This document shows positions 9,344-30,798 of a DNA stretch of 36,127 bases, piece after piece. The DNA comes from Clostridia bacterium (GTDB lineage Bacteria; Bacillota; Clostridia; UMGS1883; UMGS1540): NCBI GenBank assembly GCA_029006755.1, contig JAQXGO010000019.1, positions 1 to 36,127 of the forward strand, given 5' to 3'. The notes beneath the pieces are model-generated. The model ran no database searches. It had not been told where the DNA came from and saw nothing but the letters and a program-made list of their open reading frames with translations. The translations under genes were made by a program, and so were the position numbers. How positions within the stretch are numbered: the first letter of the stretch is position 1; every line of letters begins with the position of its first letter.

Positions 9344-10684
9344 TTAGCGATGCTCTCTTTCTACGTAGTCTTTACCTTTGCAAAGGCTTTTATAGGCAGG
9401 ACGAATAATTTTATTTGCGGAAGCCATTTCTTCAATACGATGTGCACTCCAACCGGCAATTCTGGCAATTGCAAAAAGAGGTGTATATAGTTCGTGCGGA
9501 ATGCCAAGCATATCATAAACAAATCCGCTGTAAAAATCTACATTCGGACTCACGCCCTTGAAAATTTTTCTTTTTTTCGCAATCAGCCTCGGCGCGACCG
9601 TTTCAATAGTAGTATAAAGCTTTAAATCATGCTTTTTGCCCTTCTCCTCTGCAAGCTTTTCTACAAAACTCTTAAAGACAACTTCACGAGGGTCTGAAAG
9701 GCTATACACGGCATGCCCCATGCCGTAAATGAGACCTTTTTTGTCAAAGGCTTCATGATTGAGGATTTTTTCAAGATAAGCGGCAACCTCTTCTTCATCT
9801 CCGTAGTGTCTGACATGTGCTTTTATATCTTTCATCATATGCATAACCATGATATTTGCGCCACCGTGCCGGATCCCCTTTAAGGAACAGAGAGCGGCCG
9901 CGGTGGATGCGTATGTGTCAGAACCGGCAGAGGTAACCACCCTTGTCGTAAAGGTGGAATTATTTCCGCCGCCATGCTCGGCGTGCAAAAGAAGCGCAAC
10001 ATCCAAAACGCGTGCCTCCAAGGCCGAATACCGCATGTCCGGCCGCAGCATGCGCAAAAAGTTTTCCGCAGTGGAAAGGGCAGGGTCGGGCCTGTGAATA
10101 TACATGCTGGTGTTTTTTTTGTAATGACTAAAGGCATGATATCCGTAGACGGCAAGCATAGGGAAAATACTGATCAGTTGTATGGATTGCCGCAGGGCAT
10201 TTTCGAGGCTTAAATCATCGGTTTTTTTATCATAAGAGGCGAGCGTAAGTACGCTTTTTGTCATAGAATTCATAATGTCACTGGTAGGCGCTTTCATGAT
10301 AACGTCTTTCGTAAAGTTTGACGGAACACGTCTTGCCTCAGAAAGTATGCGGCAGAATTGTTCTAATTCTTGCAAAGAAGGCAACTGGCCAAAAATCAAT
10401 AAGTAGGCGACTTCCTCAAATGCAAACTTTTTACCGGTACTGCCCTGGATTAAATCGGAAATGTTGTAGCCGCGATAAAAAAGTTTTCCATCGCAGGGGA
10501 CTTTTTTGCCATTTTGGCAGGAAAAGGCTTGGACGTCTGAAATATTGGTCAGCCCTGCCAAGACGCCGTTGCCGTTCTCGTCCCGCAGGCCTGCCTTTAC
10601 CCCATATGCAGAATAGAGTTCCCGATTAATATGGTCATGTTCCATACAAAGCTGTCCTTTTTCAGAAAAATAAGTAGTATGCAA
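9344..10684 (-). CDS. gltA: Citrate synthase (citrate/2-methylcitrate synthase family), 446 aa
   Basis: Condenses acetyl-CoA with oxaloacetate; in anaerobes this feeds glutamate synthesis. Conserved blocks include HAEHGGGNNSTFTTRVVTSAG, the GMGHAVY histidine and SPNVDFYSGFVYDMLGIP with the catalytic Asp. Start choice: AGGAGG stands 7 nt before an in-frame TTG at 10684, giving an N-terminus of the length usual in clostridial homologues. An ATG at 10645 has a weaker AAGGA site and would remove 13 residues. A methylcitrate synthase role cannot be excluded, but no propionate genes are nearby. Confidence 0.9.
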   Translation of the reverse strand: MHTTYFSEKGQLCMEHDHINRELYSAYGVKAGLRDENGNGVLAGLTNISDVQAFSCQNGKKVPCDGKLFYRGYNISDLIQGSTGKKFAFEEVAYLLIFGQLPSLQELEQFCRILSEARRVPSNFTKDVIMKAPTSDIMNSMTKSVLTLASYDKKTDDLSLENALRQSIQLISIFPMLAVYGYHAFSHYKKNTSMYIHRPDPALSTAENFLRMLRPDMRYSALEARVLDVALLLHAEHGGGNNSTFTTRVVTSAGSDTYASTAAALCSLKGIRHGGANIMVMHMMKDIKAHVRHYGDEEEVAAYLEKILNHEAFDKKGLIYGMGHAVYSLSDPREVVFKSFVEKLAEEKGKKHDLKLYTTIETVAPRLIAKKRKIFKGVSPNVDFYSGFVYDMLGIPHELYTPLFAIARIAGWSAHRIEEMASANKIIRPAYKSLCKGKDYVEREHR

Positions 10685-10848
10685 AAAAATACCTCCTATC
10701 AAATTCAGTTTAATCTATCCGGTACATTGTATACCTTTTTTTAAAAATGCGAAATATTCAAAAATGCGCACAAACAAAAAATCTTGCGTTTACCAAATTT
10801 TAGCATAAACGTAAAAAGAAAGCATAGGATGTACAAAGAGGTGAGGAC

Positions 10849-11121
10849 ATGCAATATGAATTAGAAAATGTTTGGATTTATGCTGCAGGATTTATTTTTG
10901 CGGTTGCCTTTGTACGCGTTTTGAAAAAGCCGCTGTTTTTCCTTTTGCGCATAGCGCTCAACTCACTTTTTGGTGGGCTGCTGATGATCCTGGTAAACAC
11001 ATATGGCGGCAGCTTGGGATGGCATGTAGCCGTCAATCCGGTCACAGCCCTCATAAGTGGGATATTAGGGTTGCCCGGAGTTATCATGCTCATTATACTG
11101 ACGCGCTTATGCGGTCTATAA
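10849..11121 (+). CDS. bofA: BofA family pro-sigma-K processing inhibitor, 90 aa
   Basis: Small membrane protein with two or three hydrophobic segments and the family signature near the C-terminus (NPVTALISGILGLPGVIMLIIL). In Bacillus, BofA holds the SpoIVFB protease inactive in the outer forespore membrane until the forespore signals. A SpoIVFB-type protease is encoded about 10 kb away at 21314-22084. AGAGGTGAGG precedes the ATG. The last 29 nt overlap the end of the convergent FAD oxidoreductase gene, and no terminator is seen between them. Confidence 0.9.
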   Translation: MQYELENVWIYAAGFIFAVAFVRVLKKPLFFLLRIALNSLFGGLLMILVNTYGGSLGWHVAVNPVTALISGILGLPGVIMLIILTRLCGL

Positions 11122-12631
11122 TGGAAAGTGCCGCCATCATGCCATCGGCCGCGGCGGACATAATGCCGCCGGCGTAACCGCTGCCTTCTCCGGCAGGGAA
11201 AAGCCCCGCAAGATTACTTTCATACTGCGCATTGCGACAAATACGCAGCGGAGAGGAACTGCGTGTTTCCGGCGCGGTAAGCAGGGCATCCGGCATGGCG
11301 AACGGTTTGATTTTTTTGGCGAATAGAGGCAACCCTTGCCGCATGGTGTCCGCAACAAAGTCCGGCAGGCAATCAGCAATATTGCCCGGAACAACGCCGC
11401 GCGCATAGGTGGGGTGCACAGAACCGAAGGCAGAGGAAGGACGGTTTTGCAGAAAATCCTCAACACGTTGGCAGGGCGCAAGATAGTTGCCGGCAATACG
11501 GAAGGCGGCCTCTTCAATTTGCCGCTGAAGTTGCACGCCGTCAAAGGGATCATGCCCAAAATCGTCCGGGGTAATGCCTACTAACAGGGCGCAGTTGGAG
11601 TTCTCCCCGTCTCTGGCATGCAAACTGTATCCATTTGTTACTACGCCACCAATTTCCGAAGCGGCAGGAATGACATATCCGCCGGGACACATACAAAAGG
11701 AATATAAGGAGCGCCCGCTGGGCAAATGCGCAACAAGCCGGTATTCAGCTGCCGGCAGGTGCGCAGCGGCGGATCCATACAGGGCATGGTCAATTACAGA
11801 ACGCGGGTGTTCAATTCTGGCACCGACAGAAAACGGCTTTGCTAAAAGCGTTACATTTTTCTGCCGCAAAACAGCAAAGGTATCCCGGGCACTATGCCCG
11901 ATTGCCAAGAGAATAGCAGAAGTGGGATAGACTGCATGCGATGTAACCGCTGCACAGATAGCATTGCCTTTGCAATGCAAATCTGTAAGCTGCGTATCAA
12001 AATGCACTTCGCCGCCTTGGCGGATGATTTCTTCCCGGATGCTTTTTACAACCTGCGGCAGGCGATCGGAACCGATATGCGGATGCGCTTCGTATGCAAT
12101 CTCTGCAGGGGCACCGTGAAGAAGAAGGGTATCGGTTATAAAGTGCAGGAGAGGGCTTTTAATCCCTGTACCGATTTTTCCATCGGAGAAAGCACCGGCA
12201 CCGCCTTCGCCAAATTGCACATTGGAGGCCGGGCTTAGGTTGCCGGTGGAGAAAAAACGCTGTAAATCCTTCTTGCGTGTTTCCACGTCCTTACCGCGTT
12301 CAAGCACAATCGGACGCAACCCGGCACGTGCCAAAACAAGTGCGCCAAAAAGGCCGGCAGGACCAAACCCCACAACTACCGGACGCACACGGCTATGCAC
12401 TTTAGGAATATGAAAGGGAACAGGCGGGGTATAGGACTTGGCCGTAATGCCGCTTTTCTCCTTTACAGAAACGGCTAAAGTATAGATCCACTGCGGCGTA
12501 TGGCGTGCATCAATAGAACGCTTGAGCACTTTCACAGCCTGGATATTGGTAGGTGACGTATGCAGCGCTGCTGCTGCTGCGCCAGAAAGGCTGCCGCCTT
12601 CCGGAGGCAGCTTTATTTGTATTTGAAACAC
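11093..12631 (-). CDS. FAD-dependent oxidoreductase (COG2509-like), 512 aa
   Basis: Large flavoprotein with a small N-terminal domain (residues 1-80), then a Rossmann FAD-binding motif VVVGFGPAGLFGALVLARAG (from residue 85) and a C-terminal GLFPAGEGSGYAGGIMSAAADG block that closes the FAD site. This layout matches the widespread uncharacterised clostridial FAD dehydrogenases. The physiological substrate is unknown. GTG start with AAAGGG upstream. It is divergent from recA and convergent with bofA. Confidence 0.85.
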   Translation of the reverse strand: MFQIQIKLPPEGGSLSGAAAAALHTSPTNIQAVKVLKRSIDARHTPQWIYTLAVSVKEKSGITAKSYTPPVPFHIPKVHSRVRPVVVGFGPAGLFGALVLARAGLRPIVLERGKDVETRKKDLQRFFSTGNLSPASNVQFGEGGAGAFSDGKIGTGIKSPLLHFITDTLLLHGAPAEIAYEAHPHIGSDRLPQVVKSIREEIIRQGGEVHFDTQLTDLHCKGNAICAAVTSHAVYPTSAILLAIGHSARDTFAVLRQKNVTLLAKPFSVGARIEHPRSVIDHALYGSAAAHLPAAEYRLVAHLPSGRSLYSFCMCPGGYVIPAASEIGGVVTNGYSLHARDGENSNCALLVGITPDDFGHDPFDGVQLQRQIEEAAFRIAGNYLAPCQRVEDFLQNRPSSAFGSVHPTYARGVVPGNIADCLPDFVADTMRQGLPLFAKKIKPFAMPDALLTAPETRSSSPLRICRNAQYESNLAGLFPAGEGSGYAGGIMSAAADGMMAALSIIDRISASV

Positions 12632-12769
12632 AATAAAAACCCTTTCCTAAAATGGGATGGAACCGCGGCCATACTCTCGTGGCTTGCCGTTCTCAAAAAC
12701 GGGGCGAGCGCATGTGGGTATTCCATAGTATCATCCATGACGCAATTCTTTCTTGTTAGAACTAAGTAT

Positions 12770-12798
12770 AGTATACCATGGTGTAGGTTTTTTGTCAA
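12770..12798 (-). promoter_or_regulatory. Promoter of the FAD oxidoreductase gene
   Basis: Minus strand TTGACA (12798-12793), 17 nt, TATACT (12775-12770). Divergent from the recA promoter, about 40 bp away. The leader to the GTG start is long, about 130 nt, and I see no riboswitch in it. Confidence 0.85.
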
Positions 12799-12836
12799 AG
12801 AAATCCAGCACAAATCGGATTAATTTTTTATTCGTC

Positions 12837-12865
12837 TTGACATACGGGAAAAATCCAAGTATAAT
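12837..12865 (+). promoter_or_regulatory. Consensus SigA promoter of recA
   Basis: TTGACA (12837-12842), 17 nt, TATAAT (12860-12865). No GAAC-N4-GTTC type LexA box is visible in or near it. Downstream in the leader is an inverted repeat AGAATC-N7-GATTCT (12877-12895). Confidence 0.9.
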
Positions 12866-12917
12866 TAGGTATAAATAGAATCGGAATAAGATTCTGTTTC
12901 ATAAGGAGTGTGTATAC

Positions 12918-13994
12918 ATGGCAGAAAAGAAGGGCACGGAAAAAAAGAGAACACCGGTGTCTGTTGAAGGACAAGGCGAGAAGAAAAAAGCGCTGGAAAT
13001 GGCGCTGGGGCAAATAGAAAAGCAGTTTGGCAAGGGTGCGGTTATGAAGCTGGGAGACAATACCCATCTGAATGTTGATTCGATTCCGACCGGAGCACTT
13101 GGGCTGGATATTGCGTTAGGAATTGGCGGTGTGCCTCGTGGCAGAATCGTAGAAATATATGGCCCGGAATCTTCCGGAAAAACTACTGTTGCATTGCACA
13201 TTATTGCAGAGGCGCAAAAGCGCGGAGGCGAGGTAGCCTTTATTGATGCTGAGCACGCATTGGATCCGCACTATGCCGGCATTCTGGGCGTAGACGTGGA
13301 TAGCCTCATTGTTTCGCAGCCGGATACGGGCGAGCAAGCGCTTGAAATTGCGGAAGCACTGGCACGAAGCGGCGCGTTGGACGTTTTGGTTGTTGACTCG
13401 GTGGCGGCGCTTGTCCCGAAGGCGGAAATTGAAGGCGAGATGGGCGATGCCCATGTGGGCTTACAGGCAAGGCTTATGAGTCAGGCATTGCGTAAACTTG
13501 CAGGGGTTGTCAACAAATCCAATACAACCGCGATCTTTATTAATCAGCTGCGGCAGAAGGTGGGCATTGTATACGGCAATCCGGAGGTTACGACCGGCGG
13601 TAATGCACTGAAGTTTTATGCCTCTGTTCGTCTTGACGTTCGTAAACAGGATGTCATTAAGGTGGATGGCGTAGCAGTCGGCAACCATGTCCGTATTAAG
13701 GTCGTCAAAAACAAAGTGGCACCTCCTTTCCGCGAGGCGGAATGTGACATTATGTATGGCCATGGCATCTCCAAGGAAGGTAATGTGCTGGATTTGGCGG
13801 CAGAGTACGAAATTGTAGAAAAAAGCGGAGCATGGTATTCCTATAATGGAGAACGAATCGGGCAGGGCAGAGAAAATGCAAAAAAATATTTGTCAGAGAA
13901 CCCGGAAGTGATGGAGGAAATGGAACAGCGGGTTCGCGAGAAGGCCGGCCTTATAGAGGCTGTGCCTGCAGAGGATGACGAAACGATAGAATAA
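12918..13994 (+). CDS. recA: Recombinase RecA, 358 aa
   Basis: DNA strand-exchange ATPase of homologous recombination and SOS induction. Walker A is GPESSGKTT (residues 82-90), Walker B is the [14 protein letters not shown] strand, loop L1 is [23 protein letters not shown] and loop L2 carries the [21 protein letters not shown] region. A Lys/Glu-rich N-terminal extension of about 20 residues precedes the usual start of the fold. AAGGAG lies upstream of the ATG. A single-gene unit with its own promoter and terminator. Confidence 0.98.
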
Positions 13995-14007
13995 GAAAGA
14001 ACCATAG

Positions 14008-14050
14008 AAGGAGCAATGCGTATCTTGTTACACGATAGGTTGCTCCTTTT
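14008..14050 (+). terminator. recA terminator
   Basis: AAGGAGCAA (14008-14016) pairs with TTGCTCCTT (14040-14048) across a 23-nt loop, and T residues follow. Confidence 0.75.
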
Positions 14051-14072
14051 ACATCAGTAGGGAGGGTGTACC

Positions 14073-14966
14073 ATGAATTTAATTCACCTTCGTTATGCAC
14101 TTGCCATCGAGGATACCGGCTCGGTGACACAGGCGGCACAACGCCTTTTTGTAGCACAGCCGAACATCAGCCGTGCCATTCGGGAACTCGAAGCCGATAT
14201 TGGCATTACCCTGTTTCGCCGGACGGCAACCGGCATGGTGCCTACGGAGGAAGGCAAGATTTTTCTTCTCCAAGCAAGAGATATTGTGCGCCAGCTGGAT
14301 GCCTTGGATCGAACCTATCATGGCAGTGGGGAACGGCGGCAGTATTTTGCAGTGTGCGGACACGGCGCCTCCTATATTGCCCGTGCTTTTACTGCCTTTG
14401 TAAAGGACAATGCGGTTTCCCAACCTTTTGCCTATAATTTTTGGGCAGCTACCTCCAATATGGTTACAACGTATGTTGCCCATGGGGATTCGGATGTGGG
14501 CGTCATTCGCTTTGCAGCCAATATGGAGGCAAGAGTACGACAATGGCTTTCGGCACGTGGGCTTGGAATGAACATTCTGTTTTCCACGCCGCAACAGCTC
14601 TTGGTTTCTGAAAGTTCTCCCCTGGCGGCTTTACCGGCGGTGGGGGAGGCGGATCTTGCCGGGTATGTGCAGGTGACCTGCAATACAAGACTGCATATTG
14701 ATGAGAACAGAATGTTGCCGGAACAACATGTAAGCGTAGGGGATCGGGGAAGCCGCGCTATGCTGTTAAAAACCGTGCCACACACGTTTGCGATGACAAC
14801 GCAAGAGGAGAGCGGAGACATGGAAGAAGGATTAGTACAGCGCCCTTTTTCAAAGAAACAGACACCGTTGAAGGATGCCGTTGTGTTCCGGAAGAAGTAC
14901 ACGTATTCCGAGCTGGATAAGGCCTTCCTGGCCTCCTTGCACCGTGTGATTAGCGCATATCTTTAA
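14073..14966 (+). CDS. LysR-family transcriptional regulator, 297 aa
   Basis: N-terminal winged helix-turn-helix (about residues 10-60: DTGSVTQAAQRLFVAQPNISRAIRELE) followed by a substrate-binding effector domain of normal length. GGGAGGG precedes the ATG. It starts only 22 nt after the recA terminator and about 150 nt before the hydrogenase operon on the same strand, so it may act on that operon, but there is no direct evidence. Effector unknown. Confidence 0.9.
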   Translation: MNLIHLRYALAIEDTGSVTQAAQRLFVAQPNISRAIRELEADIGITLFRRTATGMVPTEEGKIFLLQARDIVRQLDALDRTYHGSGERRQYFAVCGHGASYIARAFTAFVKDNAVSQPFAYNFWAATSNMVTTYVAHGDSDVGVIRFAANMEARVRQWLSARGLGMNILFSTPQQLLVSESSPLAALPAVGEADLAGYVQVTCNTRLHIDENRMLPEQHVSVGDRGSRAMLLKTVPHTFAMTTQEESGDMEEGLVQRPFSKKQTPLKDAVVFRKKYTYSELDKAFLASLHRVISAYL

Positions 14967-14993
14967 ATATATATGTCTATGCAATATTTATAT

Positions 14994-15022
14994 TTTACAA
15001 ACGATTTGGACTATGGTATTAT
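14994..15022 (+). promoter_or_regulatory. Promoter of the hydrogenase operon
   Basis: TTTACA (14994-14999), 17 nt, TATTAT (15017-15022). The leader to hydC is about 90 nt. I looked for a Rex-like TTGTTAA..TTAACAA palindrome and saw none. Confidence 0.65.
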
Positions 15023-15117
15023 ATTTGCGGCTGTGATAGGCGGTATATGTCGATTTTTGTAGGGAACGACGGCATGTATGGACATCCGGCCGCATGTATT
15101 ATTATGGGAGTGATGAA

Positions 15118-15606
15118 ATGGGAACCGCAGAAAGATTTGAAAAGGTTAGCGCGATTATTGAAAAGCATGGGCGCGAAGCACATAAGCTCATCCCGATTTT
15201 GCAGGAAATCCAAGAGGAGTACAGTTACTTGCCTGAAGATTTAATGCTGTATCTTGCAAAGGAAATCGGCGTGCCGGCTGCTTCTGTATATGGTGTTGCA
15301 ACTTTCTATGCACACTTTACATTGGAAGCAAAGGGTAAATACATTATTAAAGTGTGTGATGGAACAGCATGCCACGTTAAGAAATCCGAAGGCATTCTGA
15401 AGGTTTTGGAAGAGGAATTAGGGCTGGATAAAAAGAAGAGAACTTCTGATGACATGCTCTTTACTCTTGAAACCGTTGCTTGCTTAGGTGCTTGCGGTCT
15501 TGCACCTGTTGTTGTTGTCAATGACAAGGTACATGGCGCAATGACACCGGAAAAGACAAGAGAATTAATCCAGGCAATCCGAAAGGAGGAAGCGGAGAAT
15601 GCATAA
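15118..15606 (+). CDS. hydC: NuoE/HydC-type [2Fe-2S] hydrogenase subunit, 162 aa
   Basis: Thioredoxin-like ferredoxin subunit homologous to the 24-kDa subunit of complex I. The cluster ligands C80-x4-C85 (CDGTACH) and C122-x3-C126 (CLGAC) are all present. It relays electrons to the flavin subunit encoded next. Start at 15118 because GGAG lies 7 nt upstream; an in-frame extension upstream has no ribosome site. It overlaps the next gene by 8 nt. Also called HndA in other species. Confidence 0.92.
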   Translation: MGTAERFEKVSAIIEKHGREAHKLIPILQEIQEEYSYLPEDLMLYLAKEIGVPAASVYGVATFYAHFTLEAKGKYIIKVCDGTACHVKKSEGILKVLEEELGLDKKKRTSDDMLFTLETVACLGACGLAPVVVVNDKVHGAMTPEKTRELIQAIRKEEAENA

Positions 15607-17482
15607 GATAAATTTTGAAGAACGTAAAAAACAGTATTTAGCTGCGATGGAAGAGTATAAGGCACGCATTGTTGTTTGCGGCGGTACCGGCTGTATGGCA
15701 AACGGATCCGGCGAAATCCTGGAGAAGTTTAAAACAGTTGTGAAAGAGAAAGGGCTTTCTATTACGGTTGCTCTGGAAAAAGAGAAAACGGATTTCATTT
15801 TAAAGACAAGCGGCTGTCAGGGCTTCTGTCAGATGGGTCCCTTGGTAACTTTGTATCCCCAGGGCATTCTTTACGTCCATGTAAAGGCTGAGGATGTTGA
15901 GGAAATCGTAGAGCGCACCCTTTTGAAGGGCGAGATTATTGAGCGGCTTCTTTACAAAGAGAATGATGGTACAACCATTGCGGAAATGCAGAAGATTCCT
16001 TTTTACGATAAGCAGAAGAGAACCACACTGGAGCTTTGTGGCAGAATTGATGCTTTGGATATTGACGAGTATATCGCACATGGCGGTTACGAAATGGCAA
16101 AGAAGGCTGTTTTGGAAATGACTGACGATGAGATTTGCGATGAAATCTTAGCCTCCGGTCTTCGTGGCCGAGGCGGCGGCGGGTTCCCCACAGGCCGGAA
16201 ATGGGCGCTGACGAAGGTTCATAAGAATGACACAAAGTACGTTATCTGTAATGGTGACGAGGGTGACCCCGGTGCATTCATGGATCGCTGTGTCATGGAG
16301 GGCAACCCCCACAGCGTCATTGAAGGTATGATCATTGCAGCCTGTGCCATTGGCGGTACAGACGGTTATATATATGTACGTGCTGAGTACCCCTTGGCAG
16401 TTGTACGTTTGCAGATTGCTGTTGAAGCTGCGCGTAAGGCAGGCATTCTGGGCAAGAACATATTCGGTTCCGATATGAACTTTGATATTAACATTATGGA
16501 GGGTGCCGGTGCATTCGTCTGTGGTGAAGAAACGGCACTGATTCACTCCATTGAAGGCATGCGTGGTATGCCTACCTCCAAGCCGCCGTTCCCGGCAGAA
16601 AAAGGCTTGTTTGGAAAGCCCACCGTTATTAACAATGTTGAAACATTGGCTACCATTCCGATTATTATGCAGATGGGTGCAGAGAAGTATGCAGCGATCG
16701 GTTCTGAAAATGCAAACGGCACAAAGACATTTGCATTAACCGGTCACGTTGCACATACCGGTCTTATCGAAGTACCGCTGGGCACAACTCTTCGTCAAAT
16801 TATTGAAGAAATCGGCGGCGGTGTGATGAATGATGACGGCACACTTTGCGGCACAGACTTTAAGGCTGTACAGATTGGCGGCCCTTCCGGCGGTTGTTTA
16901 ACACAAGAACATCTCGATCTGCCGCTTGACTATGATCATTTGAAGTCTGTGGGTGCAATGATTGGTTCCGGTGGTTTGGTTGTTATGAACCAGCAGACAT
17001 GTATGGTAAGCATTGCACGCTTCTTCATGCAGTTTACACAGAATGAATCCTGCGGTAAATGTGTTCTGTGCCGCGAAGGAACAAAACAGATGCTTGAGCT
17101 TTTGGATGATATCATTGAAGGTCGAGGTACAGCAGAGACATTAGAGCTTTTGGAATCTCTGGCACGTACTGTACAGGCAGGCTCTTTGTGTGCACTGGGT
17201 AAAACAGCACCGAACCCGGTTCTGTCTACATTAAAATACTTCCGCAAAGAGTATGAAGCACATATCTTTGAAAACAAATGCCCCGCAGGCCGTTGCGAAG
17301 CCTTCGCAAACTATGCTATCGATCCGGAAAAGTGTAAGAGCTGCAGCCTTTGCGCTCGTAAGTGTCCGGTAGAAGCAATTAGCGGTGAAAAGGGTGTACC
17401 TTACACGATTGATACAGACAAATGTATTAAGTGCGGTGCTTGCATAGGAAACTGCAAGTTCGGCGCAGTATATAAAGGTTAA
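15599..17482 (+). CDS. hydB: NuoF/HydB-type FMN and Fe-S subunit of the hydrogenase, 627 aa
   Basis: NAD(P)H-reacting flavin subunit. It has three parts: an N-terminal thioredoxin-like [2Fe-2S] region (CGGTGCMANGSG, then TSGCQGFCQMGP), a central NuoF core with the glycine-rich NADH/FMN block (RGRGGGGFPTGRKW, then GEETALIHSIEG) and the CGKCVLCREGT cluster site, and a C-terminal pair of [4Fe-4S] motifs (CKSCSLCARKCP and CIKCGACIGNC). This architecture is typical of HydB/HndC of bifurcating or NAD(P)-linked [FeFe] hydrogenases. Translation is coupled to hydC. Confidence 0.95.
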   Translation: MHKINFEERKKQYLAAMEEYKARIVVCGGTGCMANGSGEILEKFKTVVKEKGLSITVALEKEKTDFILKTSGCQGFCQMGPLVTLYPQGILYVHVKAEDVEEIVERTLLKGEIIERLLYKENDGTTIAEMQKIPFYDKQKRTTLELCGRIDALDIDEYIAHGGYEMAKKAVLEMTDDEICDEILASGLRGRGGGGFPTGRKWALTKVHKNDTKYVICNGDEGDPGAFMDRCVMEGNPHSVIEGMIIAACAIGGTDGYIYVRAEYPLAVVRLQIAVEAARKAGILGKNIFGSDMNFDINIMEGAGAFVCGEETALIHSIEGMRGMPTSKPPFPAEKGLFGKPTVINNVETLATIPIIMQMGAEKYAAIGSENANGTKTFALTGHVAHTGLIEVPLGTTLRQIIEEIGGGVMNDDGTLCGTDFKAVQIGGPSGGCLTQEHLDLPLDYDHLKSVGAMIGSGGLVVMNQQTCMVSIARFFMQFTQNESCGKCVLCREGTKQMLELLDDIIEGRGTAETLELLESLARTVQAGSLCALGKTAPNPVLSTLKYFRKEYEAHIFENKCPAGRCEAFANYAIDPEKCKSCSLCARKCPVEAISGEKGVPYTIDTDKCIKCGACIGNCKFGAVYKG

Positions 17483-17494
17483 GGGGTGAACACA

Positions 17495-19216
17495 ATGAAG
17501 AATAAAACAATAACAATTGATAATAATGTCTACCCGATCGAGAACGAGAAGAATCTGCTGGAAGCTATCCGTGCTGCAGGCATTGATCTGCCCACTTTCT
17601 GTTACCAGCCGGAACTAAGCGTTTTTGGTGCATGTCGTATGTGTATGGTTGAAGTAGAAGGGCGCGGTCTTGTACCCGCCTGCTCCACCGCTGTAATGGA
17701 CGGCATGGTGGTTCGTACCAACACAAAGCAAATCCGTGATATGCGTAAGATGATTGTTGAGCTTATGCTTGCACATCACGATCAGAATTGCACAACCTGC
17801 CCGAAAAGCGGTTCTTGTAAGTTGCAGTCACTGGCGCACAAGATGGGCATTAGCAAGGTTCGTTTCCAAGATGTTGAAACCGAGATAACCATAGATATGT
17901 CCTCTAAGTCCATTGTCCGCAACAGCTCCAAGTGTGTACTTTGCGGCTGCTGCGTACGTACCTGCCGCGAGATTCAGAGCGTTGGCGCATTGGATTTTGC
18001 AAATCGTGGCTCTGATGCCAAGATCGTTTCCAACTTTGACAAGCCTATCGGTAAGGTGGAATGTGTAAACTGCGGTCAGTGCATTAAGGTTTGCCCGGTT
18101 GGCGCACTTTCTCCCAAGTATCAGATTAACGAAGTCTGGAACGAAATTTATAATGAAGATAAGACTGTTGTTGTGCAGATTGCACCGGCTGTACGTGTTG
18201 CGATCGGTGAACAGTTCGGTTATGAACCGGGCGAAGCCACCACAGGCCAGATGGTCAGCGCACTGCGCATGATGGGCTTTGACTATATTTATGATACCTC
18301 CTTCGGAGCAGACTTTACGGTTATCGAAGAAGGGAACGAATTTATCGAACGCTTCAAGAAGGGCGAAAAGCTGCCGCAGTTCACCTCCTGCTGTCCGGCA
18401 TGGGTGAAGTTTGCAGAGCAGACTTATCCGGAGCTTCTGCCGAATGTTTCTACTTGCAGCTCTCCCCAGCAGATGTTTGGTGCCCTTTGCAAGGATCAGC
18501 TGACAAAGATGCTGAACATCCCGCGTGAAAAATTGGTCGTTGTATCTATTATGCCTTGCACAGCTAAAAAGTTTGAAGCTGCACGTCCCGAGTTTGCAAA
18601 GGATGGCAACCCGGATGTGGATTATGTATTAACCACACAGGAACTTGCAATGATGATTCAGGAAAGAGGCATTGATTTTAGAGGTCTTGAAATCGGTTCC
18701 TTTGATATGCCTTTCGGCTTTAAGACCGGTGCGGCAGTTATCTTCGGTACAACCGGCGGCGTAAGTGAAGCTGTGCTTCGTTATGCAGCATACAACCTAA
18801 GCGGCGGCCAGATGCCGAACGTAAAAGAGCTCCGCGGCAAAGAAGGGATTAAAACATTAGAAGTTACCTTGGGTGAGGTTACATTGCGCCTTGCTGTTGT
18901 CAGCGGTCTTGCAAATGCACGTAAGCTGATTGAGGCTATAAAGGCCGGGAAGGAAAGCTATGATCTGATCGAAGTTATGGCATGCTGCGGTGGCTGTGTA
19001 AACGGCGGTGGCCAGCCCATTTCCAAGACAAGCGACACAGTTGAAAATCGTGCGGAAGGTCTGTATAAGAATGATAAGGATCTGCAGTTCCATAGTTCTG
19101 AACAGAACCCCTACCTGCAGAAAATGTATAAAGAAGATATCGACAAGGAAAAGGCACATCACCTGTTCCATACCGGTTATCAGGAAAGACAGTACGTTAC
19201 AATCGACGAAGACTAA
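17495..19216 (+). CDS. hydA: [FeFe] hydrogenase catalytic subunit, 573 aa
   Basis: Makes or oxidises H2 at the H-cluster. Iron-sulfur sites run in order: [2Fe-2S] C36/C47/C50/C63; His-Cys3 [4Fe-4S] H95/C99/C102/C108; two ferredoxin motifs C147-C157 and C190-C200; then the H-cluster motifs TSCCPAW (297-303), MPCTAKK (353-359) and EVMACCGGCVNGGGQP near the C-terminus. With hydC and hydB it forms the trimeric unit that can couple NADH and ferredoxin oxidation to H2 evolution (known for the family). Whether this one bifurcates is not shown by sequence. The start at 17495 has AAGGGG 8 nt upstream. The maturases HydE, HydF and HydG are not in the window. Confidence 0.96.
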   Translation: MKNKTITIDNNVYPIENEKNLLEAIRAAGIDLPTFCYQPELSVFGACRMCMVEVEGRGLVPACSTAVMDGMVVRTNTKQIRDMRKMIVELMLAHHDQNCTTCPKSGSCKLQSLAHKMGISKVRFQDVETEITIDMSSKSIVRNSSKCVLCGCCVRTCREIQSVGALDFANRGSDAKIVSNFDKPIGKVECVNCGQCIKVCPVGALSPKYQINEVWNEIYNEDKTVVVQIAPAVRVAIGEQFGYEPGEATTGQMVSALRMMGFDYIYDTSFGADFTVIEEGNEFIERFKKGEKLPQFTSCCPAWVKFAEQTYPELLPNVSTCSSPQQMFGALCKDQLTKMLNIPREKLVVVSIMPCTAKKFEAARPEFAKDGNPDVDYVLTTQELAMMIQERGIDFRGLEIGSFDMPFGFKTGAAVIFGTTGGVSEAVLRYAAYNLSGGQMPNVKELRGKEGIKTLEVTLGEVTLRLAVVSGLANARKLIEAIKAGKESYDLIEVMACCGGCVNGGGQPISKTSDTVENRAEGLYKNDKDLQFHSSEQNPYLQKMYKEDIDKEKAHHLFHTGYQERQYVTIDED

Positions 19217-29352: not shown

Positions 29353-29428
29353 TGGTGACCCCAAAGGGAATCGAACCCTTGTTTTAGCCGTGAGAGGGCT
29401 ACGTCCTAGGCCGCTAGACGATGGGGCC
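29353..29428 (-). tRNA. tRNA-Glu (CTC)
   Basis: Cloverleaf of 76 nt with encoded CCA. Acceptor GGCCCCA pairs with TGGGGTC, and the anticodon loop CTCTCAC gives anticodon CTC for GAG. T arm CAAGG/CCTTT with the GTTCGATTC loop region. It has its own promoter and terminator. Confidence 0.95.
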
Positions 29429-29479: not shown

Positions 29480-29524
29480 AAAAAAAAATAAAAAGTAGCC
29501 CGGTCAAGCGGGACCGGGCTTTTT
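29480..29524 (-). terminator. Terminator of the spoVM-like operon (works in both directions)
   Basis: AGCCCGGTC pairs over 9 bp with GACCGGGCT (29497-29520). T-runs follow on both strands, TTTTT on plus and TTTTTATTTTTTTT on minus. It starts 11 nt after the micro-gene stop. Confidence 0.85.
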
Positions 29525-29530
29525 GGGCGG

Positions 29531-29602
29531 CTATTTCACCTTAAAAATCCGTTTTAATATGCCACCTAAAAACTTTGGCGCTTTCCATATGACTACCTGC
29601 AA
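29531..29602 (-). CDS. spoVM: SpoVM-like sporulation micro-protein, 23 aa
   Basis: Translates as MQVVIWKAPKFLGGILKRIF and ends VK. The KxPKFLxGIL core is the signature of SpoVM, the amphipathic helix that recognises the curved outer forespore membrane and recruits the coat ATPase SpoIVA (known for Bacillus, where it is 26 aa). Start is TTG with AAGGGGG 8 nt upstream. It follows the 49-aa membrane-protein gene by 19 nt and ends just before a strong terminator. This supports a real two-gene sporulation unit in place of a chance frame. SpoIVA is not in the window. Confidence 0.72.
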   Translation of the reverse strand: MQVVIWKAPKFLGGILKRIFKVK

Positions 29603-29621
29603 GAAACACACCCCCTTCTGC

Positions 29622-29771
29622 TCAATCGCTGCTAAAAAAGCACCAACCGATGATGATTAGCATAATGGTTTCAATAATTGCTAATATCCACAGAGGCAAG
29701 GCGGCTGCTAATAGAGCGCCTATAGAAAAAGATAGAATGATGATACCAACAGCTCTTCGTTTACCGCACAT
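29622..29771 (-). CDS. Small membrane protein in the spoVM-like operon, 49 aa
   Basis: Starts MCGKRRAVG and is then almost entirely hydrophobic (about residues 8-46, with a proline break at 26), so one or two membrane segments are likely. GGAGGTG stands upstream of the ATG. A basic Cys-containing start followed by a helix-Pro-helix is a pattern I associate with small clostridial membrane proteins beside spoVM-like genes, but I do not recognise a named family. Upstream, CATAGTAT near 29796 resembles a SigE -10 box but lacks a convincing -35 partner. Confidence 0.65.
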   Translation of the reverse strand: MCGKRRAVGIIILSFSIGALLAAALPLWILAIIETIMLIIIGWCFFSSD

Positions 29772-29826
29772 ATTTATGTACACCTCCGTTTAGTAACATA
29801 CTATGCAGAGGATTTGACTATGGTGT

Positions 29827-30798
29827 CTACTGATTGACAAATATTTTTGAAGGTACATAAATATTTGGCGAGGCAGGTGATTTTTTCTCTAACAGCCAAT
29901 CGCCTGCAAGCTGCATGGCACAACGACCCATTTCGTAGGCATCGCTAATGGAAAGCAAGCGAATGAGTCCGCTGTTTAAATACGTTGCGTTCCCCGGAGG
30001 ATTTTCGTAGCCAATGCAGATGACGTCCTTACAAAGGCCCAATTTACAAAGGGCAAGAGAGGCGTAGGGGGTGACACCTGTTCCGCAATACAGGCAATCG
30101 AAAGAGCCTATGCCTTTGGCCTTTATGGAACGGGCGATGACGGAGGCAAAGGGAGATGAAATAGCCTCAAGCGTAATGGAGTCAACAATCGAAACACCGC
30201 TTCCCTCCAGAGCTTTTGCAAAGCCCGCAGAACGAAGCTGTGCGCCGAGCCCGTTATGCACATGGAGCGCAAGAATCCGCTTGCGGTTAGGCTGATACTG
30301 TAAAAGTGCACGGCCGAGGCGCATACCGTCTTTAAAATAGTCCCCTCCTATTGTGGCTAAATGGGGTGCATCCAATCCTTCGCTTACACATATCACAGGC
30401 TTTTCGGCGGCCAAAACAGCAATTCTTGCTTTGACCTCTGCCATGGTTGGCGGTGCGATAATCAAAGCATCCATATTTTCCATGTAGTCAATGGCATAAA
30501 TAGATTCGCGCCCGACACCCATAGAAGAAAAAAACGCGAAGTGCGCATCCAAAGCATTCGGCACTGAGGACTCTAATCCATGACATAGTGCATCCCAATA
30601 GTAAGAAGGCGTGCATGGCAAAACAACACCGACAGTCGGCTTTCGCCCTACTTTGGCACGGGGCACAATGCCCATTGACAAGGCGGCGGCCAAGACACGT
30701 TGGCGTGTTCGCGCATCCACACCTTTTTTATGGTGAATGGCCTTATAGGCAGCGGATAAACTAATATTACATTGTTCTGCAATTCTCTTAATATTCAT
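29827..30798 (-). CDS. LacI-family transcriptional regulator, 323 aa
   Basis: N-terminal LacI helix-turn-helix (MNIKRIAEQCNISLSAAYKAI) with the hinge region near residue 45-55, then a periplasmic-binding-protein-like effector domain of normal length. Such proteins usually bind a sugar or a related small ligand. It is divergent from the creatininase/aminotransferase operon, and the shared intergenic site TTAATAGAAG sits 11 nt upstream of both -10 boxes. Control of itself and of that operon is likely (inference). Confidence 0.88.
   Translation of the reverse strand: MNIKRIAEQCNISLSAAYKAIHHKKGVDARTRQRVLAAALSMGIVPRAKVGRKPTVGVVLPCTPSYYWDALCHGLESSVPNALDAHFAFFSSMGVGRESIYAIDYMENMDALIIAPPTMAEVKARIAVLAAEKPVICVSEGLDAPHLATIGGDYFKDGMRLGRALLQYQPNRKRILALHVHNGLGAQLRSAGFAKALEGSGVSIVDSITLEAISSPFASVIARSIKAKGIGSFDCLYCGTGVTPYASLALCKLGLCKDVICIGYENPPGNATYLNSGLIRLLSISDAYEMGRCAMQLAGDWLLEKKSPASPNIYVPSKIFVNQ

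Follow-up and report, generated by a model that had tools for sequence, protein, structure and literature searches.

A SpoVM-like 23-residue gene and a conserved 49-residue membrane-protein gene form an adjacent pair in many clostridial families

Introduction

SpoVM is an amphipathic peptide, positively charged and kinked at a proline, that attaches to the convex outer forespore membrane and fixes the base of the coat there; its usual partner, SpoIVA, is the coat-base ATPase. CmpA of B. subtilis is a further small sporulation protein, belonging to the SpoVM-SpoIVA checkpoint. To our knowledge, SpoIVA is otherwise regarded as present in every spore-former. SpoVM itself was not found in many clostridia by Galperin et al. 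(2012, PMC3533761), who left open that distant versions exist. In C. difficile, the spoVM gene lies near rpmB and directly 3' of CD25622, which encodes a 50-residue protein of unknown function thought to be unique to Peptostreptococcaceae (Ribis et al. 2017, PMC5607322). The same study showed C. difficile to be nearly independent of SpoVM and raised the possibility that a redundant factor assists SpoIVA.

We analyzed a 36,127-nucleotide stretch of DNA (hereafter the window) from a draft genome of a Clostridia bacterium. Two very short reading frames in the window, one of which encodes a membrane protein of 49 residues and the other a TTG-started peptide of only 23, had been predicted to form a sporulation operon. 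Is the shorter gene a genuine spoVM, and how is the longer one connected with it?

Results

Layout of the locus

According to the original prediction, the two open reading frames lie back to back, each with its ribosome-binding site, and are followed by a terminator; the coordinates and the sequence features were correct, and all are on the minus strand (Table 1). The stop codon of the 49-residue gene is separated by 19 nt from the TTG of spoVM on the same strand, and AGAAGGGGG lies inside this gap. Related species have GGGAGGTG or GGAGGTG at the equivalent position. The order of the pair followed by tRNA-Glu is common to G002, G004, and G005, three other species of the same family, and the tRNA gene has a perfect sigma-A promoter of its own (29469-29441). 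A related regulator C-terminus (IYIPSxIFENK) occupies the equivalent place 5' of the pair in G004 and G005. The gene for a small acid-soluble spore protein (SASP) is a second sporulation gene in the window and thus supports a sporulation context.

Table 1. Positions of the gene pair, its signals, and its neighbors in the window.
Feature	Position	Strand	Remarks
49-residue membrane-protein gene, MCGKRRAVGIIILSFSIGALLAAALPLWILAIIETIMLIIIGWCFFSSD	29622..29771	-	ATG at 29771, stop to 29622; two helices
spoVM, 23 residues, MQVVIWKAPKFLGGILKRIFKVK	29531..29602	-	TTG at 29602, stop to 29531
Ribosome-binding site GGAGGTG of the 49-residue gene	29781..29787	-	identical in G002, G004, G005
Ribosome-binding site AGAAGGGGG of spoVM	29611..29619	-	8 nt 5' of TTG
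Candidate promoter AC-N17-CATAGTATG	29794..29824	-	sigma K/sigma E (mother-cell) type, 5' of the pair
Intrinsic terminator of the pair	29497..29520	-	stem of 9 pairs, 7 of them G-C, then T run
tRNA-Glu(CTC)	29353..29428	-	downstream neighbor, outside the pair
LacI/periplasmic-binding-type regulator	29827..30798	-	upstream neighbor, outside the pair
Alpha/beta-type SASP gene, 63 residues	8018..8209	-

Identity of the 23-residue gene

The KxPKFLxGIL core noted in the original prediction reads KAPKFLGGIL. Residues 1-23 of the peptide align with positions 1-23 of the NCBIfam model SpoVM_broad (NF033436; E 3.9e-5). The score of 23.6 bits does not reach the curated cut-off of 31, and neither do the 15.3 bits obtained with Pfam PF08183 reach its cut-off of 20.6; annotation pipelines would therefore miss the gene, as had been expected of a 23-residue gene with a TTG start. 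Among 118 relatives, 63 match NF033436 at E <= 0.1 and only six of these score above the cut-off. The cut-off appears too strict for these genomes and excludes most clostridial SpoVMs, so we treat the low score of the 23-residue peptide as an issue of the annotation threshold, not as a missing biological feature. Within our set of SpoVM sequences, 38 of 39 match the model.

We compared the peptide with B. subtilis SpoVM (PF08183, NF033436, NF011327). The two share their length class (23 versus 26 residues), an amphipathic second half, family-model positions 1-23, and residues K7, P9, K10, F11, L12, G13, G14, and I15. The window SpoVM differs in its TTG start, in its shorter C-terminus, and at residues 2 and 6, where it has Q and W instead of K and I. 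It also differs in its setting, with the 49-residue gene upstream, without an rpmB neighbor, and with SpoIVA not found in the genome. Both K2 and I6 are important in B. subtilis, and Pro 9, which the TTG start of the window gene places at the expected residue, is the one invariant position of SpoVM (PMC5607322). W6 is common to G002, G004, and G005, all of which have SpoIVA. Residue 6 of SpoVM is I, V, L, F, or W, the SpoIVA ending EGxGGLICIIL is constant, and we saw no covariation of this residue with the SpoIVA C-terminus.

The start codon is TTG in four species of the family (G000, the host genome of the window, and G002, G004, and G005) and GTG in G001 and G003. An alternative start at GTG 29611 was rejected: it overlaps the ribosome-binding site, is out of frame in G002 and G004, and would make the proline residue 12. 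Residues 9-22 are amphipathic, with a hydrophobic moment (computed, not taken from a solved structure) of 0.64 that is reached by 2.8% of shuffled sequences; for the SpoVMs of G002 and G005 the corresponding figure is 0.3%. The charge of the peptide is +6.

Could a frame of 23 codons with a TTG start and a score below the cut-off be non-coding, and its likeness to SpoVM accidental? The start, frame, core, ribosome site, and gene neighbors are kept in G002, G004, and G005, with dN of 0.04-0.21 against dS of 0.47-2.8 and variable sites mainly at third codon positions. Moreover, SpoVMs that do exceed the cut-off, for example those of G006, G015, G019, and G024, stand behind members of the same 49-residue family. 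We consider the chance of an accidental likeness close to nil. Loss of the core motif was looked for in close relatives and did not occur. The profile match, Pro 9, the retained non-ATG start, the amphipathic C-terminal half, purifying selection, and the shared gene order all agree with the predicted identity; judged by its sequence, the gene is a genuine spoVM, of an already known family.

The 49-residue membrane protein

AlphaFold2 predicts a hairpin of two helices (residues 2-22 and 27-48) with a mean pLDDT of 81. The alignment shows little or no variation at G9, G18, P26, and G42. No Pfam or NCBIfam family was found for the protein, which gave scattered weak matches to unrelated membrane proteins. 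Where dS could be estimated, dN is 0.02-0.07 versus a dS of 0.55-1.3; this gene and spoVM are both under purifying selection. A profile built from 30 sequences matches 59 of the 118 relatives.

Pairing of the two genes across relatives

Matches to the 49-residue profile and independent matches to the SpoVM model are adjacent on one strand, with the 49-residue gene first, in 39 genomes. We then applied a SpoVM profile built only from the SpoVM-model matches to 14 other loci of the 49-residue gene. This held-out profile detected a SpoVM behind the gene in 12 of the 14 (17.9-38.1 bits), where the best of 3030 control frames scored 7.4 bits. The SpoVMs of G064 and G091, at 4.4 and 5.9 bits, are under the control maximum and remain doubtful, though alike by eye. 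In total, 51 of the 59 genomes, from 18 families, have a SpoVM directly behind the 49-residue gene, a count that leaves out G077 and G099. The 49-residue gene is thus a positional marker, by which 12 SpoVM genes were recovered where the curated model had no match; those of G081 (MKIFVLKPPKFLRTIMKKIFRIKTSE) and G107 (MKIFVLKPPKFLRTFLKKVFRIKTG) are examples of SpoVMs that the model overlooked. By gene order, the 49-residue protein accompanies SpoVM across many families of Clostridia and is broadly conserved, with a function that we can only infer.

We found no SpoVM downstream of the homologue in G035, nor in G046 (L136), G079 (L061), and G105 (L139), which belong to one family. The lone homologues in these last three genomes indicate either that the partner can exist alone or that SpoVM has moved.

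In family f23, whose homologues are 38-50% identical to the 49-residue protein of the window, the order is 49-residue gene, spoVM, rpmB; in G047, G080, and G106 the pair is followed by a convergent rpmB. These genomes reproduce the C. difficile arrangement of CD25622, spoVM, and rpmB. In position, directly upstream of spoVM, and in length, about 50 residues, CD25622 agrees with the protein described here and may be its counterpart. In contrast to the restriction to Peptostreptococcaceae proposed for CD25622, homologues of the 49-residue gene precede spoVM in 18 families. The rpmB neighborhood of SpoVM is found in several families and is lacking in the window species. As the pair is kept without rpmB in this species and in most other families, a functional tie between the two genes is favored over inherited gene order alone.

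A hydrophobic hairpin beside an amphipathic peptide of charge +6 also has the physical character of a small toxin or bacteriocin pair. Such a pair would account for neither the end-to-end match to the SpoVM profile nor the proline at residue 9, nor for the rpmB neighborhood in several families, and no match to a toxin or immunity family was consistent across members. We regard a toxin pair as very improbable.

Expression

The pattern AC-N17-CATANNNTNNTA has a single match in the window, the candidate promoter of Table 1, where shuffling leads one to expect 0.25. The upstream element aligns across all six species of the family and resembles promoters of the sigma K or sigma E type. The related pattern AC-N16/17-CATANNNT occurs 5' of 11 of 45 loci (shuffled mean 0.7, maximum 3). 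We treat the element as a predicted promoter. In C. difficile, spoVM is cotranscribed with CD25622 under the control of sigma E (PMC5607322). This cotranscription and the occurrence of the pair in 51 genomes agree with the two-gene sporulation operon that had been proposed.

A possible role beside SpoVM

It is quite probable, in our judgment, that the locus gives rise to a two-gene mother-cell sporulation transcript for SpoVM and a conserved 49-residue hairpin partner that assists it. The pair would be transcribed as one message in the mother cell. From established SpoVM biology, the window SpoVM would be expected to settle on the convex forespore membrane and to anchor the coat base. Judging from linkage alone, the hairpin would most likely be located in the mother-cell-derived membrane that SpoVM occupies; there it could assist SpoVM in its placement, its stability, or its contact with the coat base. 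Insertions in CD25622 are polar on spoVM; the mild defect that they produce equals that of spoVM mutants, with nothing added (PMC5607322), so a helper role of the 49-residue protein has no direct support.

We found no mention of CD25622 in the literature searched beyond PMC5607322, and the only CD25622 mutant in that study is the one polar on spoVM. The redundant factor that Ribis et al. (2017) suggested now has a concrete candidate, a 49-residue protein encoded beside spoVM across 18 families. CmpA is likewise a small sporulation protein associated with the SpoVM-SpoIVA pathway; we claim no relation between it and the hairpin. CmpA is conserved in Bacillales only (PMC5607322). The breadth of the 49-residue partner was unexpected and stands out, as do its use as a marker for SpoVMs missed by the models and the missing spoIVA described below.

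Sporulation genes of the host genome and the missing spoIVA

The host genome G000 is a 1.78-Mb draft in 118 contigs and is 98.25% complete. Related loci were found in five named metagenome-assembled genomes of uncultured Clostridia, four of which are labeled as from ruminant rumen or rectum. Our sampling of the other sporulation genes of G000 was not an exhaustive list. SigE, SigK, and SigH score above a curated cut-off; SigF, a best match, stays below threshold; three SASP genes, a SipL-type protein, and yunB are present.

A search of the genome for spoIVA had been proposed as a check on the original prediction. It was negative with both PF09547 and TIGR02836; the latter model matches 91 of the 118 genomes, including all five relatives of the family. 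This result does not undo the SpoVM call. In G002 and G005, spoIVA is located between yunB and hisS. In G000, yunB and the hisS-aspS-ABC-Gld block are on one contig, C61, with the block inverted (10172-18420; L091, L102). No trace of spoIVA was seen on C61, including at both ends of the inverted block. A position of spoIVA in a gap beside hisS or yunB is ruled out, since both genes are on C61 and the sequence is contiguous. We favor a true absence of spoIVA from the yunB-hisS locus, a statement that concerns this locus rather than the organism. The gene may really have been lost, may have moved into sequence that is not assembled, or may be missing through misassembly. If a sporulating genome that lacks spoIVA were confirmed, it would contradict a rule of the field.

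G080 is a second near-complete genome (94%) that has the 49-residue gene and spoVM and in which spoIVA was not matched.

Taken with the split sigG gene described below, the failure to find spoIVA means that sporulation may be altered or lost in the window species. The pair could then be a recent relic in a species that has lost spoIVA and is in the course of losing sporulation, with both genes still intact only because too little time has passed since the loss. The absence of spoIVA from a genome that is 98% complete would fit such a history, as would the presence of yunB and hisS on one contig without it, the inverted hisS-aspS-ABC block, and the split in sigG. However, sigH, sigF, sigE, sigK, yunB, SipL, and the three SASP genes are intact, neither gene of the pair has stops or frameshifts, and G002 and G005 have the same sigG split yet keep spoIVA. 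In a draft of 118 contigs, moreover, spoIVA could sit in a gap and the inversion could be a misassembly. We consider a relic unlikely. If the pair is instead a working sporulation transcript, SpoVM in the window species would have another partner, or spoIVA would sit in unassembled sequence. The wider proposal, that the hairpin is a widespread working partner of SpoVM and that in some species, the window species among them, the pair does its work at the forespore membrane with no SpoIVA, is a tentative one that we rather doubt.

Split sigG and interrupted spoIVA genes

The sigG gene of G000 is split at residue ~95 into G000:C91:48805-49152 (L092) and G000:C28:33944-34486 (L093). It is also split in G002 and G005, and G004 has the C-terminal half only (L094-L098); these cases span two genera, and the pieces are distant from one another. 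The pieces have the common core TGCCAATGA. The outer flanks, when joined, form the palindrome CCTACGTTCAT-GCCA-ATGAACGTAGG, which is perfect in G002 except for one core base. Joined in frame, the N- and C-terminal halves would give YAVPMIIGEIRR. No recombinase gene was seen beside the pieces. The split looks like a DNA rearrangement at a specific site; alternatively, the sigma factor may work as two chains. An intact sigG is located ~2 kb upstream of the 49-residue gene and spoVM in G001 (G001:C25:36972-39867).

Three families have spoIVA genes interrupted at one common site, near residue 400 (core ATACATAT; Table 2). A literature search, judged by title, returned no report of a skin-type element in spoIVA.

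Table 2. Interrupted spoIVA genes.
Genome	Position	Loci
G084	G084:C2:28347-67757	L175, L176
G044	G044:C10:156066-177926	L177, L178
G113		L179, L180

A large serine-recombinase-like gene of ~550 codons adjoins the C-terminal piece of spoIVA in G084 and G044, and the interruption therefore looks like a skin-type element within spoIVA.
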